From positions 1-24,838 of IMG/VR virus record IMGVR_UViG_3300032287_001872: 24,838 bases of DNA, one strand, 5' to 3'. Shown here in pieces: positions 2 through 24,838 of the stretch. The notes below the pieces were generated by a model. That model made no database searches. It was not told the DNA's origin and saw only the letters and a list, made by a program, of their open reading frames with translations. How positions within the stretch are numbered: the first letter of the stretch is position 1; each line of letters opens with the position of its first letter. The position numbers and the translations under genes are program-made. Source of the stretch: a virus.

Positions 2-370
2 GGCGAGCTGTGGAACGTGCAGGTGCAGGACAACCTGCTGGTGCTGGCCGACAGCAAGAACGGCCAGCCGCGCGTGATACCCGCGCACCCGCGCATCCGC
101 CACCTGCTGAAGCACCTACCCCTCACGGGCCACAAGCGCGGCGTGCAGGCCGCTTGGACGCGCGCCAAGGAAAAGGTAGGCCTGGGGGATGTGCGCTTTC
201 ACGATCTGCGCCACAGCGCGGCCAGCGAAATGGCCAACGCGGGCGTGCCACTTTTCACCGTGGGCCAGGTTTTGGGCCACAAAAGCCCAGTCAGCACCCA
301 GCGCTACGCGCACCTGTATGCCGACACATTGGCCGCCGCTGTGGGCCAAATTGGCCGCAAACGGGCCTGA
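2..370 (+). CDS. int: Tyrosine recombinase (phage integrase), C-terminal part only
   Basis: This is the C-terminal catalytic part of a tyrosine site-specific recombinase; the 5' end lies outside the window, so about 122 residues are seen in frame 2 up to the TGA at 368-370. The sequence shows the box II motif HDLRH (catalytic His and Arg), the LGHKS motif, and the RYAHL stretch with the tyrosine nucleophile; an upstream SKNGQPRVIP segment fits the beta-hairpin that carries the catalytic lysine. Members of this family integrate and excise phage DNA at att sites, often tRNA genes. The gene points toward the tRNA-Ser fragment at 450-512, only 80 bp away, which makes that site its likely target. 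It is the only gene on the + strand. It could instead belong to a neighbouring element if the window is a tandem lysogen. Confidence 0.9.
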   Translation, partial: GELWNVQVQDNLLVLADSKNGQPRVIPAHPRIRHLLKHLPLTGHKRGVQAAWTRAKEKVGLGDVRFHDLRHSAASEMANAGVPLFTVGQVLGHKSPVSTQRYAHLYADTLAAAVGQIGRKRA

Positions 371-371
371 C

Positions 372-392
372 TTGGGAGGATTTCCCCACAGT
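372..392 (+). repeat. Direct repeat copy A flanking the att core (candidate integrase arm site)
   Basis: This 21-bp stretch begins TTGGG and ends TCCCCACAGT, and matches 584-604 at 17 of 21 positions, with the last ten bases identical. The two copies lie in the same orientation on opposite sides of the tRNA-Ser core. Tyrosine integrases of the lambda class bind short arm-type repeats flanking the core, so that role is inferred. Two copies are few, and chance similarity is not excluded. Confidence 0.45.
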
Positions 393-410
393 GCCTGCTG
401 CCGAGGCCCC

Positions 411-450
411 TTAGCGTTACTTGAGAAAAGCGCGCTAAGTTGTTGATTTT
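411..450 (+). terminator. Possible terminator downstream of integrase
   Basis: TTAGCG (411-416) can pair with CGCTAA (433-438) across a 16-nt loop, followed by a T-rich run ending in TTTT (447-450). It lies 40 bp after the integrase stop. The stem is short and the loop large, so this is only a weak intrinsic-terminator candidate, and it may instead be part of the attachment region. Confidence 0.25.
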
Positions 451-512
451 GGCGGAAAGGGAGGGATTCGAACCCTCGGTACTGGAGAACCAGTACGCCG
501 GATTTCGAATCC
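450..512 (-). other. Attachment core: 3' half of a tRNA-Ser(CGA) gene (attP-like)
   Basis: Read on the minus strand, this segment holds the anticodon loop TTCGAAA with anticodon CGA (507-505), the 3' anticodon stem TCCGG, a long class II variable arm (stem TACTGG/CCAGTA), a perfect T-arm GAGGG-TTCGAAT-CCCTC (477-461), the 3' acceptor strand CCTTTCC, discriminator G, and an encoded CCA at 452-450. The 5' half is missing: upstream of about 512 the expected CCGGA stem strand and D-arm are not found. A tRNA 3' half of this kind is the classic core of a phage attachment site, because integration restores the tRNA. The neighbouring integrase supports this. It is not a functional tRNA gene by itself. 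Confidence 0.8.
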
Positions 513-529
513 TATGCGACACCCGCGCT

Positions 530-548
530 ACGAGGGAAGCTCCCTCGT
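530..548. repeat. 8-bp inverted repeat next to the att core
   Basis: ACGAGGGA (530-537) and TCCCTCGT (541-548) form a perfect 8-bp stem with an AGC loop. No T-run follows on either strand, so it is a poor intrinsic terminator. Its place between the att core and repeat copy B would also suit a protein-binding site in attP. Function unknown. Confidence 0.4.
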
Positions 549-583
549 GAAATAGGCGCAAAACAGGCATCTGGAGGGGTAGT

Positions 584-604
584 TTGGGCAGAAATCCCCA
601 CAGT
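584..604 (+). repeat. Direct repeat copy B flanking the att core (candidate integrase arm site)
   Basis: This is the second copy of the 21-bp repeat seen at 372-392, with 17 of 21 identical positions, in the same orientation and on the lysis-gene side of the core. It sits between two small inverted repeats (530-548 and 609-623). An arm-type integrase site is inferred from position only. Confidence 0.45.
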
Positions 605-608
605 CCAG

Positions 609-623
609 GCTCATTCGATGAGC
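609..623. repeat. Small hairpin after the last late gene
   Basis: GCTCAT (609-614) and ATGAGC (618-623) form a 6-bp stem with a 3-nt loop, 15 bp beyond the holin stop codon. It could mark the end of the late transcript, but no T-tract follows on the minus strand, so an intrinsic terminator is not supported. Confidence 0.25.
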
Positions 624-637
624 TACTGACCAATCGA

Positions 638-1153
638 CTAGCTCTTGGCCAGGAGCGCGGTCTTTGCGGCTGACCCTGCCGAGCTGCCGAAGTAGTACGC
701 CACCACCGAGGCCCAGGCGCCGCCCAGGGCGCCCAGCATGACCAGCAGGGCGTCGCCGCCGGCCTCGGGCTTGCCTTGCGCCAGCAGCCAGCTCAGCACC
801 CCAAAGAAGCCCACCGTGATGCCGATGGCCAGCAGGCGCGGGGTCCAGGTGTCGCCGCTGGCGGCCTCGCGGTTGCGGGCGCCGTCGCGGTCGGCCTGGT
901 GGATGCGCTCGAGGTCGATGTCCAGCTCGCGCATGCGCACCTGGAAGGCCTGCTCAGCGGCTTTGAGCTTGCCCAGGGCATCGGCGCCGCCCAGGGTGAC
1001 GGCCTGGGCCAGGTCGGCCTCGCTGCCGTCGGGCCGGCCCAGCAGGGCGTCAGACAGGGCGGCTGCGGCCACGCCGGCCAGCGGGCCTCCCAGGGCGGTG
1101 GCCAGGCCGGGCGCCACGGCGCCGACGATCTTCTTCCAGTCGATGTCGGGCAT
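638..1153 (-). CDS. Holin, GTA-type three-TM family
   Basis: This 171-residue protein looks like the three-transmembrane holins typified by gene transfer agents (GTA_holin_3TM family). It has an N-terminal small-residue hydrophobic segment (about residues 8-38), a charged middle with an LDIDLERIHQADRDGAR-type amphipathic stretch, and two clear membrane helices, about residues 105-125 (ending FFGVLSWLLAQG) and 133-160 (with AYYFGSSAG). Holins form inner-membrane lesions that release or activate the endolysin. The gene is last in the late operon, 5 bp after the endolysin gene, and a GGAGG ribosome-binding site lies about 11 nt before the ATG. No Rz/Rz1 spanin pair was recognised nearby. The family call is from recognised sequence pattern and not from a search. 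Confidence 0.8.
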   Translation of the reverse strand: MPDIDWKKIVGAVAPGLATALGGPLAGVAAAALSDALLGRPDGSEADLAQAVTLGGADALGKLKAAEQAFQVRMRELDIDLERIHQADRDGARNREAASGDTWTPRLLAIGITVGFFGVLSWLLAQGKPEAGGDALLVMLGALGGAWASVVAYYFGSSAGSAAKTALLAKS

Positions 1154-1158
1154 GGCGG

Positions 1159-1635
1159 TCAGGCCTCCATCAGGTCAGCAATTCGGATGGCCCATCCTTT
1201 GCCAAACGCAGGCCAATTCTTCAAGCTGGTCATGAAGCGCAGGCGCTGGGCAAGGATAGCGGTCTTGAGCTGCTGCGCGTCTTTGGCGTAGGCGGCGGAC
1301 AGGGTCTTGGGGCCGATGACGCCATCGGCCGTGACGCCAAGCGCCCGCTGCAGCCACAGGGCCGACTGCGCGGCGCCGCTGTTCACGGCGCCGTCGAAGA
1401 CGATGTAGCGCACCCCGGGCGGTAGATCGTCAGCGCGCACGGGGCGCCAGTAGCTCTCCAGGTAGATGCGCTTGGCCAGCTCCACCGGCAGAGCGCGCAT
1501 GTCGCCGCTATAGCCCGCCTGGCGGGCAACGGCCTCGGTGACGCCGAAGCGGGTTTTGCCGCCGCCGTCTTCTTCGTGGTCAGAAAAGTCGCCCTCGTGG
1601 CCGAGCAGCAAGGCAAAGGCGGTGTCGAAGTTCAT
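1159..1635 (-). CDS. Endolysin, GH108 muramidase with peptidoglycan-binding domain
   Basis: This 158-residue protein matches the GH108 (DUF847) lysozyme family. The N-terminal domain shows GHEGDFSDHEEDGGGKTRFG, with the family's expected catalytic glutamate at E14 and the Asp-Gly-Gly turn at D23-G25. The second half (WLQRALGVTADGVIGPKTL, then a helical region) fits the PG_binding_3 domain that usually follows. It cleaves peptidoglycan glycan strands at the end of the lytic cycle. There is no signal peptide, so it is expected to depend on the holin encoded next. It follows the one-TM protein gene by 7 bp and precedes the holin by 5 bp, forming a compact lysis cassette. Confidence 0.9.
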   Translation of the reverse strand: MNFDTAFALLLGHEGDFSDHEEDGGGKTRFGVTEAVARQAGYSGDMRALPVELAKRIYLESYWRPVRADDLPPGVRYIVFDGAVNSGAAQSALWLQRALGVTADGVIGPKTLSAAYAKDAQQLKTAILAQRLRFMTSLKNWPAFGKGWAIRIADLMEA

Positions 1636-4568: not shown

Positions 4569-5614
4569 CAGAAGTTCTGCCCAACAGTCGAGGCGTACCA
4601 GTTGGTGCCGCCGTCATGGGTGGTGAGGGTAAAGATGTCCACCTTCCCGTTCGTGCTGGTCAGCGTTGGCGCCACCGCGTTGGCCCACTTGACCGCCGCC
4701 GGCCACGTCACCGTCCGCCCCGTGCCGTCCGCCGTGAACTGCAACAGCATCGTGTAGCCGAAGCCGGCCACCGGCGGGTTGGAAAGCGTCAGCGTCGTGA
4801 TGTTGGCGTTCAGGCTCACCGCGAACACCGAGCCGGCCGAACAGTCGAGCGTCAGCGTGCCGGCGGTAATTGACGGCGTGGTCTTGGTCTCGCGCACCGA
4901 CTTGAAGTAGGACGAGCCTCCGTTGGGCTGCCAGTAGATGTCGTAGTTGGTGGCGTAGTTGGCGCTGGCTCGGGGCTGCACCCAGAAGGCGCCCGAGGCG
5001 TAGGCGCCGACATCGAGCACGACGCTGGCCGCGCCGAAGCGGGCCACCGCGTTAGGGTCAGCCGCGCTGCCCGACGATGCCGGGGCGCCGCCCGAGATTG
5101 CGCTGTAGGTGTGCAAGCCCGCCAGCGGGGTGGCGACACCCTGGCTCAATTTGCCGGGGACGTAGAGGTCCTGCGCCACGGTGGCCAGCGCGGTCACGCT
5201 GATTGTCCAAGTCGAATAGGTGCCGCTGCCACCCGTGGCCGTCACGTTGACCGTCAGGGCCCCCGTGCCGCTGTCGTAGGCAGTGATCTGGCCGATCATG
5301 AAGTTCGAAGGGGTCATCGTCATGGCGATGATGACGAACTGCCCGAGGAACCACGTCTTGCCGGTCTGCGTGGTCAGCGTCTTGCTGCCGGTGCCGATCA
5401 GCAGCGAGGTCACCGACGTGCCGCCGTTGGTGGAGGCGTTCACCGCGCTGGTGCCGACGTTCACGACGGTGGTTGCCACCGCCACCATCTGCGACAGCGC
5501 AGGCACGAAGCGGGTGCGGTGGCCGCCGTTGGCAAGGCCGGTGCTCGCGTTGCTGTCGTCGGAGACGGTCGAGCCGTTGCCGCCCAGGTTGACGGGAAAG
5601 GTAACGCTGGCCAT
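4568..5614 (-). CDS. Tail fibre/appendage-like structural protein
   Basis: A 348-residue, Thr/Ser/Gly/Ala-rich protein. The N-terminal third includes TGSKTLTTQTGKTWFLGQFV, a pattern common in phage fibre beta domains. The C-terminal 110 residues (LDCSAGSVFAVSLNANITTL, VTWPAAVKWANAVAPTL, ending WYASTVGQNF) match a domain that recurs at the ends of many phage tail fibre proteins. It probably contributes a fibre or its base at the tail tip. Translation is coupled on both sides through TGATG overlaps with the distal tail-like gene and the larger fibre gene. Precise position in the virion cannot be read from the sequence. Confidence 0.7.
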   Translation of the reverse strand: MASVTFPVNLGGNGSTVSDDSNASTGLANGGHRTRFVPALSQMVAVATTVVNVGTSAVNASTNGGTSVTSLLIGTGSKTLTTQTGKTWFLGQFVIIAMTMTPSNFMIGQITAYDSGTGALTVNVTATGGSGTYSTWTISVTALATVAQDLYVPGKLSQGVATPLAGLHTYSAISGGAPASSGSAADPNAVARFGAASVVLDVGAYASGAFWVQPRASANYATNYDIYWQPNGGSSYFKSVRETKTTPSITAGTLTLDCSAGSVFAVSLNANITTLTLSNPPVAGFGYTMLLQFTADGTGRTVTWPAAVKWANAVAPTLTSTNGKVDIFTLTTHDGGTNWYASTVGQNF

Positions 5615-21820: not shown

Positions 21821-22111
21821 TCAGCCGCGGCGCACTATGCGGATGACGGTGCGGGGCGTGACTCCCTCGGCCCGGGCGATCTCAGCTAGGCGCTTGCCCT
21901 GCAGGTAAGCGCGCTGCACGCGGCTGGCGCGCTCTTGCGCGGGCGGCCGCACGCCCACGTGTACCTTGCAGCCACCCCAGGAGGCGCGCACCTCCTGCTC
22001 CACCTGGCGCGCAAGCTCGGCGTCCAAGCGGCGCTGCGTGGCCTCTTCGGCCTGCTGTATGCGCCGGATGATGTCGCTGACGATGCAGCTGCGGGGGTCC
22101 GTCGTCACCAT
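21821..22111 (-). CDS. Mor-type helix-turn-helix DNA-binding protein
   Basis: A 96-residue protein with an N-terminal helical region (about 10-42), a W45-G46-G47 turn followed by a strand (CKVHVGV), and a C-terminal helix-turn-helix (RVQRAYLQGKRLAEIARAEG, then VTPRTVIRIVRRG). This order, helices, WGG-strand, HTH, matches the Mor/C transcription activator family of phage Mu, whose members act as dimers on inverted-repeat sites upstream of promoters. The gene starts inside the terminase stop (ATATGGTGA overlap, AGGA upstream), so it is in the late operon. The palindromic element lies just downstream. Activation or feedback control of head genes is an inference; a packaging accessory role is also possible. 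Confidence 0.7.
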   Translation of the reverse strand: MVTTDPRSCIVSDIIRRIQQAEEATQRRLDAELARQVEQEVRASWGGCKVHVGVRPPAQERASRVQRAYLQGKRLAEIARAEGVTPRTVIRIVRRG

Positions 22112-24231
22112 ATGCGTCCTGTCTTGATGGCTGGCGGGTTGGCAAAGGGGTTGGCGCGCCTGGGCGGCGGTGTGGCGGAAGCTGCAGGGGCTGCAGCGGC
22201 GGTGGGCCGGGACTGAGCGGGCGGGGCTTGCTCGGGTGACGGCTGGGGGTTGTTGGTGGCTGGCGATTCAGCAATGGGGGCGGGTGCAGGCGGCTGCGGG
22301 GCCGGCCCAGCCGCTGCAGGCGCTTCGACCTGGTCGAACAGGCTGCGCTCTTCCACCCGTTGCTGCCACTTGGCCCAGTCGCCATCTTTCCAGCGGTCAA
22401 TGCCCGACAGGTGCGCGGCGGCCAGGGCGTAGACGGCGCAGTCCAGCGCCTCGTTGCGGCGGCCGGCGGGCTTGACCCACTCCAGGCGCGGGCGGCCTTT
22501 GACGTACTTGGTGACCAGGCGCTCGGCGGTCAGCTGCTCAAAGACCTCGGGCGGCAGGTGGCGGCTTAAGTGCACGTAGCCGGGGCCGGGCGCCTCGTTG
22601 CGCAGGCGGCCGTAGATCTCGGCCTTGGCGGTGTCGGTGCCGATGGGGAACAGCTTGACGCCACCCTTGAGCTTGGTGCCACGCCAGGACACGTCCTGAT
22701 CGGTGGCCTTGCCCAGGATGGCCTTGCCGGCCTGGCTCTGACCCTTCACCGCGTAGACGTGCGCGTGCTGGTGGGCGCGGGTGTAGGCGTACACCGCCTG
22801 GGTGTGGTGGCCGCCCGAGTCGATCATGCAGGCCAGCAGCGGCACGGGCCGGCCGCTGGCGTGCAGCACGGGCGTGCGGCGGTACTCGGTCAGACGCGCC
22901 CACGGGCTGCCGGGCTCTTGCTCGCCCTGGCCGGGGTCACCGTAGAAGACAGCTCGGTCCACCAGCTGGCGCTCCATGCCCCGGCCCCAGGCCCAGAGGT
23001 AGGCCTCGAGGCGGTCGCCCTGGGTGTCAACGCCCATCGTCATGACGAAGTGCCCCCAGTGCACCTGGCGCAGCGGGATGTCGGCCGCGCGCTTGCGCAG
23101 GGCGTGCTCGTCGGCGCGGTCGCCTTGCTCCTCAAAGGTCTCGGCCAGGCGGGTATTGACGAACACGCGCAGCAGGCTGATGTCGCCCGTGCGGCTGGCG
23201 GTGATGGCGGTTTCCCACTCGGTCACCAGCGTGGCCCAGCTCAGCCAGCCCAGCGGGCTGTAGAGGCTGCTGAGCTGAAAGCCGCGGATGCGCCCGGCAG
23301 CGGCGCCCAGGTTCTCAGCCACCCAGCGGCCACCGGCCAGCATGGCGGGCTTGTGGTGCTCGCGGATCTCGGCGCCGCAGCTGCGGCACACGTAGCGCAC
23401 GGAGTCGGGCAGCGCGCGGCCTTCGGCGTCTCGGTCCCACTTCAGGCCGTGCGGCTTGTCGGTGCCCCAGTCCAGCGGCTGCAGCTCGGCGCAGTGCGGG
23501 CACGGCACGTGGTAGCGGCAGCGGTCGCTGGCCAGGTAGCGGGCCTCGATGCGGCTGAAGTCTTTGGTGGTGGGCGTGCTGGTGAGCAGGCGCTTGCGGC
23601 GGCTGAAGGTGGACTGCCGGGCTTCGGCCAGCTTGATGGGGTCGCCCTCGCCGTCCACGTCAATCGGGTAGCCGTCGATCTCGTCCAGAAACAGGTCGCG
23701 CACGGGCATGGAGCGCAGGCCCGCGGCGCTGTTGGCGCCAGCGACGGCCATGAACCCGCCCGCGAATTCCTTGAGCAGGGTGGTGTTGGCGTCATCCCGG
23801 CTGCGGTTCTCGCGCACCTTGCGGCGCAGCGCGGGGCTCTCCTCGATCATGGGCGCCAGGCGCTGGCGGCTGTAGCGCTTGGCCATGTCGATGGTGGGCT
23901 GCACGATCATCACCGGCCCGGGGTTGGTGTCCACCAGGTAGCCCAGCCAGTTGGAGCCGATGCGCGTCTTGCCGGTCTGCGCGCCCCACATCAGCACCAC
24001 CTCTTCCACGGTGCTGTGCTGGCTGAGGCAGTCCATCGGCTCGCTGGCGTAGGGCGTGCGGGCGCTGCGGTAGGGGCCGGGCTCGGCGCTGTCTTTGGCG
24101 CTGAGGATGATGGAGCGCTCGGACCACTGGGCCACGCCGATGCGCGCAGGCATGGCCGCAAACTCGCGCAGGATTTCATCGACGCGCTGCTGCGCGTCAA
24201 CGAGCTGGTGCGGGAGGTCGCGGGCGCCCAT
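22105..24231 (-). CDS. Terminase large subunit, GpA family
   Basis: A 708-residue GpA-type terminase that cuts cos and drives DNA packaging. The ATPase domain shows Walker A GAQTGKT (83-89) and Walker B LFLDEID (180-186). Two CxxC pairs (C244/C247 and C282/C285) form a probable zinc-binding element. The C-terminal nuclease region has GVDTQGDRLEAYLWAWGRG, CMIDSGGHHTQAVY and ALDCAVYALAAAH, with three acidic residues expected for metal binding. From about residue 640 on the protein is a Pro/Ala-rich tail, longer than usual, ending KTGRIW. The gene follows the small subunit by 3 bp. GpA-family terminases are typical of cos phages, which fits the cos-like sequence at the right edge. Confidence 0.95.
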   Translation of the reverse strand: MGARDLPHQLVDAQQRVDEILREFAAMPARIGVAQWSERSIILSAKDSAEPGPYRSARTPYASEPMDCLSQHSTVEEVVLMWGAQTGKTRIGSNWLGYLVDTNPGPVMIVQPTIDMAKRYSRQRLAPMIEESPALRRKVRENRSRDDANTTLLKEFAGGFMAVAGANSAAGLRSMPVRDLFLDEIDGYPIDVDGEGDPIKLAEARQSTFSRRKRLLTSTPTTKDFSRIEARYLASDRCRYHVPCPHCAELQPLDWGTDKPHGLKWDRDAEGRALPDSVRYVCRSCGAEIREHHKPAMLAGGRWVAENLGAAAGRIRGFQLSSLYSPLGWLSWATLVTEWETAITASRTGDISLLRVFVNTRLAETFEEQGDRADEHALRKRAADIPLRQVHWGHFVMTMGVDTQGDRLEAYLWAWGRGMERQLVDRAVFYGDPGQGEQEPGSPWARLTEYRRTPVLHASGRPVPLLACMIDSGGHHTQAVYAYTRAHQHAHVYAVKGQSQAGKAILGKATDQDVSWRGTKLKGGVKLFPIGTDTAKAEIYGRLRNEAPGPGYVHLSRHLPPEVFEQLTAERLVTKYVKGRPRLEWVKPAGRRNEALDCAVYALAAAHLSGIDRWKDGDWAKWQQRVEERSLFDQVEAPAAAGPAPQPPAPAPIAESPATNNPQPSPEQAPPAQSRPTAAAAPAASATPPPRRANPFANPPAIKTGRIW

Positions 24232-24234
24232 GCG

Positions 24235-24771
24235 TCAGGTGGCGGCGGTGAGCTGCGACATCACCTGGCGCAGCTCGTCCTCGAGCAGGCCGTGGATGCG
24301 CGCCTGGTCGGTCTCGGCGGCCAGCTGCGCCGCCAAGCGGGCGGGGATCTGCAGCAGGCCTTCGCGGAAGGCGGCGGCGCGCTTGGCCAGGGCGGCGGCC
24401 CAGTCATCGGCGCGCACCAGCTGGCCTTGCAGCTCGGCCAGCTTCAGCTCGGCCAGCTCGGCCTCGGCCCGCTCGCGCCTGGCGCGGCTCTTCCAATAGC
24501 CGGCGGCGTTGTCTTCATCGTCGTCATCGTCGCCAGCGGCGGTGCCGCCGGTGCTGCCGCTGCCGCTGAGGTTGGCGTCGTCGGTGGCCCGGCTGCCCGC
24601 CCGCACGCGGGTGTTGCGCGCCCACTGCGCGTCCGCGGCCACGGGGTCGATCTTGCCGTTGATGAGGCTGATGCGCCCATCGCGCACTGCGCGCCGCACC
24701 GCGCCCTCGGTGCAGCCGCGCCGCCGGGCGTATTCGGCCTGGGTGATGAGCTGGACCGTACCGACAGGCAT
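24235..24771 (-). CDS. Terminase small subunit (Nu1-like)
   Basis: A 178-residue protein with an N-terminal winged-helix start typical of Nu1-like small subunits (LITQAEYARRRGCTEGAVRR, then AVRDGRISLINGKIDP), an acidic Gly/Ser/Asp linker (about 65-88, with DDDDDE), and a C-terminal helical region beginning YWKSRARRERAEAELAELKL that probably contacts the large subunit. The small subunit recognises the cos/cosB sites and positions GpA. It is the first late gene, starts 67 bp from the right edge with GAAGG upstream, and is coupled to the large subunit. Confidence 0.9.
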   Translation of the reverse strand: MPVGTVQLITQAEYARRRGCTEGAVRRAVRDGRISLINGKIDPVAADAQWARNTRVRAGSRATDDANLSGSGSTGGTAAGDDDDDEDNAAGYWKSRARRERAEAELAELKLAELQGQLVRADDWAAALAKRAAAFREGLLQIPARLAAQLAAETDQARIHGLLEDELRQVMSQLTAAT

Positions 24772-24810: not shown

Positions 24811-24838
24811 CTAGCGAAAACGCGGGGTTCGAATTACC
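24811..24838 (-). other. Candidate cos site / left cohesive end
   Basis: On the minus strand the edge reads GGTAATTCGAAC, then CCCGCG, then TTTTCGCTA (24820-24812). The lambda left end is a 12-base overhang, six more bases (CGCGGG), then TTTTCGCTA. So the nine-base block lies exactly 18 bases from the end in both, and the GC-rich six bases lie in the same place. The outer part is a partial dyad (GGT...ACC). The terminase genes start right beside it. Lambda's comparison is from memory, and the window edge may be arbitrary. Confidence 0.55.

Follow-up and report, generated by a model that had tools for sequence, protein, structure and literature searches.

A metagenomic contig ending at a lambda-like cos site and carrying a half tRNA-Ser(CGA) attP beside its integrase gene: probable linear virion DNA of a temperate phage

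The window analysed here is the whole of IMG/VR record IMGVR_UViG_3300032287_001872, 24,838 bp long and classed as linear. We are highly confident that its source is a temperate tailed phage with lambda-like 5' cos ends, probably infecting a member of the Burkholderiales, that it covers the greater part of the late half of that phage's linear virion genome, and that the half tRNA gene near its left edge is the attP core of this phage. The terminus at its right edge, shared with other contigs, is what allows linear virion DNA to be told apart from a prophage, from tandem prophages and from a closed circle.

From left to right, the window holds the C-terminus of an integrase on the plus strand, about 270 bp of intergenic DNA and then minus-strand genes from 638 to 24771 (Table 1). 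On the left the window stops at an arbitrary break of the assembly within the integrase gene, which is truncated there and whose full-length product counts 317 aa in two relatives, G004 and G008. Besides the proteins listed in the table, the minus-strand late set encodes a portal and tail proteins including the tape measure. Searching the DNA of isolated phages gave only short matches of 66-77% identity, mostly in the endolysin and integrase genes, and a literature search for a described relative yielded work on a Ralstonia phage and on the Paracoccus virome only.

Table 1. Features located in the window, with strand and the evidence used for each
Feature	Position	Strand	Evidence
Tyrosine integrase, C-terminal 122 aa	2..370	+	PF00589, E=1.1e-16; phrog_1
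Putative integrase arm-type site, integrase side of attP (TTGGGAGGATTTCCCCACAGT...)	372..399	+	Direct repeat with 584-611
Spacer in the 'long' attP allele, missing from the 'short' allele of relatives	393..449	.	Comparison of relatives
attP core, tRNA-Ser(CGA) 3' half, anticodon stem/loop to acceptor 3' end	450..512 (start 449/450)	-	Alignment to host tRNA loci
Putative integrase arm-type site, late-gene side of attP (TTGGGCAGAAATCCCCACAGT...)	584..611	+	Direct repeat with 372-399
Border of the shared xis-int-attP cassette, beyond which the sequence varies between phages	626..637	.	Alignment of relatives
Last late gene, protein of unknown function	638..1153	-	phrog_1544 match
Endolysin (Glyco_hydro_108 + PG_binding_3)	1159..1635	-	Domain matches
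Terminase large subunit (TerL; GpA ATPase + nuclease)	22105..24231	-	Domain/phrog matches
Terminase small subunit (TerS)	24235..24771	-	phrog_57
cos cohesive end GGTAATTCGAAC (inward reading), natural right terminus of virion DNA	24827..24838	-	Contig-end comparison

A first-pass annotation, made from the letters of the window, had described the 3' half of a tRNA-Ser(CGA) at 512-450, without its 5' half, between the end of the late operon and the integrase gene; ARAGORN and the alignment to host loci bear out both its coordinates and its identity, well beyond what chance would give. On one side of the fragment are the last late genes (638 onward, minus strand), on the other is the integrase (2-370, plus strand), and ARAGORN found no complete tRNA in the window. 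When a 66-bp query covering the core was compared with Burkholderiales genomes by BLAST, matches were obtained in 297 of 300, the best being 86-91% identical over about 63 bp with E-values down to 1.2e-18, and the 20 best host loci (20/20) are all intact tRNA-Ser genes with anticodon CGA. Identity between phage and host begins at the gene's 3' end ('TGGCGG..'), takes in the T arm, the variable arm and the anticodon loop and ends with GGATTTCGAATCC, while the D-arm and the 5' acceptor strand of tRNA-Ser(CGA) are absent from the phage in the alignment to the host loci. Since the identity begins in the anticodon stem, the site belongs to the anticodon-loop class, one of those described previously for tRNA attachment sites (PMC4383910), and the crossover is predicted to take place in the anticodon loop. 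The half tRNA beside the integrase is the attP of this temperate phage before integration. The same region (453-506) also resembles an Rfam family, Plastid-psbl-rps4 3UTR (RF04351), at 53.4 bits, below the gathering threshold of 68; we judged this to be a resemblance to antisense tRNA-Ser and not a plastid element, the match apparently arising because antisense tRNA-Ser sequence is part of that family.

The core is bracketed by a 28-nt direct repeat (372-399 and 584-611) whose copies are 75% identical. They have in common the 10-mer TCCCCACAGT, which arises by chance in 108 of 20000 shuffles. The distance between the start of the core and that of the right copy is exactly 141 bp in every attP contig reaching that far (30/30, window included), and in two relatives (L024 and L025) an identical C->T change is found in both copies. 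These repeats have the appearance expected of integrase arm sites, and on the strength of their sequence and spacing we assign them a putative arm-site function. Between the integrase-side repeat and the core, about 56 bp are present or absent among phages with nearly the same integrase.

The gene order of the window recurs widely. A scan with the integrase fragment returned 35 viral loci, and in about 30 of these the integrase, the half tRNA and the late genes follow one another as they do here; an exact 36-bp pattern of the core was found in 33 viral contigs, with one copy in each. No bacterial flank or intact tRNA stands at the att site of the window, and none of the viral contigs scanned as integrase relatives carries an intact tRNA-Ser; one of them has an unrelated tRNA-Arg. 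The most informative relative is G008, of 38,025 bp, which runs from cos to cos with GGTCATTCGCGAG at both ends. Its order, with ORFs chosen by codon-position GC, is TerS (at 70), TerL, late genes, attP core (22,899), integrase (22,991-23,944, minus strand), early genes and contig end. The early genes form a leftward block encoding a cytosine methyltransferase, a DUF2303 protein, an HNH endonuclease, an exonuclease and a phosphatase, followed rightward by a VapE-type primase/helicase and a minor-tail-like gene. The second relative, G004, has an integrase 98% identical to that of the window, and its start lies about 100 bp or less from the early-side cos. Its genes include those for a primase, a repressor and a methyltransferase, and an HTH_17 ORF, small and xis-like, precedes the integrase. 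At L191 7-708 and L190 18232-18957 the minor-tail-like gene (phrog_1924) was observed alone at the early-side cos end, apart from the late operon.

The initial reading of the order late genes - att core - integrase as that of attP in a free phage thus agrees with what is seen in about 30 contigs and in the cos-to-cos genome. It had also been anticipated that a free phage, extended to the left, should continue into early genes and end at cos. The window's own sequence stops inside the integrase gene, and the early half is seen in relatives: G008 passes from the integrase into early and replication genes and ends at cos, G004 likewise enters early genes, and bacterial genes left of the integrase, which would have marked an ordinary prophage end, were not found in the relatives.

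The right edge had been called cos-like by the same annotation, and the comparison of contig ends substantiates this description. Read inward, the window starts with GGTAATTCGAACCCCGCGTTTTCGCTAG, and a scan with the small terminase recovered 11 other contigs, from 11 metagenomes, that begin at the terminal base of the window; one contig (L042) has A, not G, at the first terminal base. Other relatives run across cos into a conserved stretch, CCCCCCGGTCTGGGTCCT..., and a pattern scan for this stretch yielded seven contigs of the opposite end that stop 12 or 13 nt beyond the window's terminal base. The overlap measures 13 nt in the lineage of L131, L134, L137 and L139 (13 also in G008) and 12 nt in L127 and L136. 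End repair gives 5' cos ends the cohesive sequence in common, and in assemblies such ends come to lie where contigs begin or stop (PMC5557969). An overlap of 12-13 nt between opposite ends therefore fits end-filled, lambda-like 5' cohesive ends, whereas a k-mer break would give overlaps of k-mer size. Judged from these contig ends, the right edge is a physical terminus of the lambda-like 5' cos type. Four contigs (L125, L128, L133 and L140) have the same early-side cos sequence, but the DNA past cos differs from the usual TerS-side sequence, which suggests other packaging modules behind the same cos.

Several arrangements other than packaged linear DNA could place these genes in this order. 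At the junction of two tandem prophages, the late genes of one copy would be followed by a shared half-tRNA att site and by the integrase of the next, an order identical to that of attP, and tandem arrays at tRNA genes do exist, 125 tandems of two or more being listed by Islander (PMC4383910). Gene order by itself is unable to exclude such a junction; it is the terminus that does so. A terminase-type right end held in common with 11 contigs, together with the 12-13-nt overlap with the opposite end, is unlike chromosomal DNA, and the same junction appears in about 30 contigs, none of them with an intact tRNA-Ser, and in a cos-to-cos genome, so that we regard the tandem arrangement as extremely unlikely. 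The end of an ordinary single prophage (attL or attR), or the integrase of a different element lying beside the attR of the window's phage, would also show the integrase and half tRNA typical of such ends. Neither the 5' half of the tRNA nor bacterial genes are present, however, each record has a single tRNA core, and integrase and attP move together across phages as one block, mostly 89-97% identical; the probability left to this explanation is practically negligible.

The window might instead derive from excised circular or concatemeric phage DNA and not from packaged linear DNA. Cos is crossed within one contig in L040, L043, L045-L048, L050-L052, L054, L055, L057, L060 and L063, and a cos-crossing relative that also carries attP is G010; from such relatives it is evident that circular or concatemeric, unpackaged forms also exist. 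The window, however, has its edge precisely at the cos nick, a position that would not be favoured in a closed circle, and we consider this origin very unlikely. The first-pass annotation had favoured virion or circular DNA: its virion part stands, given the edge at cos, and is narrowed here to packaged DNA in linear form, as opposed to a closed circle.

Concerning the host, it had been proposed to search bacterial genomes for a complete tRNA-Ser(CGA) with a matching 3' half. The best loci are intact tRNA-Ser(CGA) genes, but no exact match was found and the best reached 91%. At 3 mismatches or fewer, the core had no match in 399 Burkholderiales genomes (0/399), in 117 genomes of one family (0/117) or in 398 genomes of the phylum (0/398). 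The host is probably a member of the Burkholderiales. The arrangement expected after integration is seen, for an integrase 48% identical to that of the window only, in a Burkholderiales MAG (L038), in which the integrase, preceded by an HTH_17 ORF, directly adjoins an intact tRNA-Ser(CGA) at 5332-5422 in the same relative orientation of integrase and tRNA; past the tRNA come serS (seryl-tRNA synthetase) and then MgsA/RarA genes. The element to the left of this integrase is not obviously the window's phage. At 618-2837 it has an ABC-transporter-like ORF near the integrase (function read by eye), and it may not be a phage.

The integrase and attP belong to a cassette of about 1.65 kb, extending from the xis-like ORF to about 627 in window numbering, with sharp borders on both sides. 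Its identity is 89-97% among most phages and 80-83% in the lineage of G008 and L025, and L002 and G004 align in the cassette only (96.8% over 1,702 bp). The cassette occupies 1-629 of the window and 9585-11257 of L191, and its neighbouring genes are unalignable between phages. Contig breaks within the int-attP part were observed in L008, L023, L026, L029, L031, L032 and L034, as at the left edge of the window; perhaps co-occurring phages share the cassette and assembly halts there. Lambdoid phages are known to exchange their integration cassettes as modules. It is possible, though we hold it only tentatively and think it rather unlikely, that a compact xis-int-attP cassette is passed as a unit between unrelated phages, many of which thus compete for one tRNA-Ser(CGA) site; it is found in many metagenomes and integrated in no genome searched, perhaps through rare lysogeny or unsequenced hosts.

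In the life cycle that can be proposed for this phage, the cohesive ends would join on infection to give a circle carrying late genes, attP and integrase. The integrase would then bind the arm sites at about 380 and 592 and recombine attP with the host tRNA-Ser(CGA) gene in the region of its anticodon loop. On one side the product would show a rebuilt intact tRNA followed by the integrase gene, and on the other the displaced 3' half of the host gene beside the lysis genes.

All this is ordinary temperate phage biology, and mechanistically nothing in it is new. Its interest lies in the fact that a metagenomic contig is recognisable as virion DNA by sequence alone, from an attP-type junction and a cos terminus common to independent assemblies. 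Genomes complete from cos to cos, the 38,025-bp relative among them, receive the label 'linear' because their end repeats of 12-13 bp are shorter than the 20 bp required of direct terminal repeats (PMC8116208).

The closest model is the lambda virion map (cos - terminase - late genes - attP - int - early genes - cos), whose order is the same here. A gpA-type TerL and a TerS lie beside cos in this phage too, and the cohesive end is 5' and of 12 nt (13 nt in one lineage). The lambda left end, GGGCGGCGACCTCGCGGGTTTTCGCTA, has the same form as the right end of the window, and just inside the end the two sequences are similar (CGCGGGTTTTCGCTA in lambda, CCCGCGTTTTCGCTA in the window). Unlike in lambda, the lysis genes are found where the late operon approaches attP, away from cos, and attP is located in a tRNA gene; in the relatives, the early region encodes a DNA methyltransferase and a primase, of VapE type or another, and one minor-tail-like gene stands at the early-side cos end. 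In the anticodon-loop class of tRNA-fragment attP sites (Islander, PMC4383910), the 3' part of the tRNA, from the anticodon stem, lies beside the integrase gene as it does here, and integration would rebuild the tRNA; with respect to this class nothing essential differs, the target here being tRNA-Ser(CGA).
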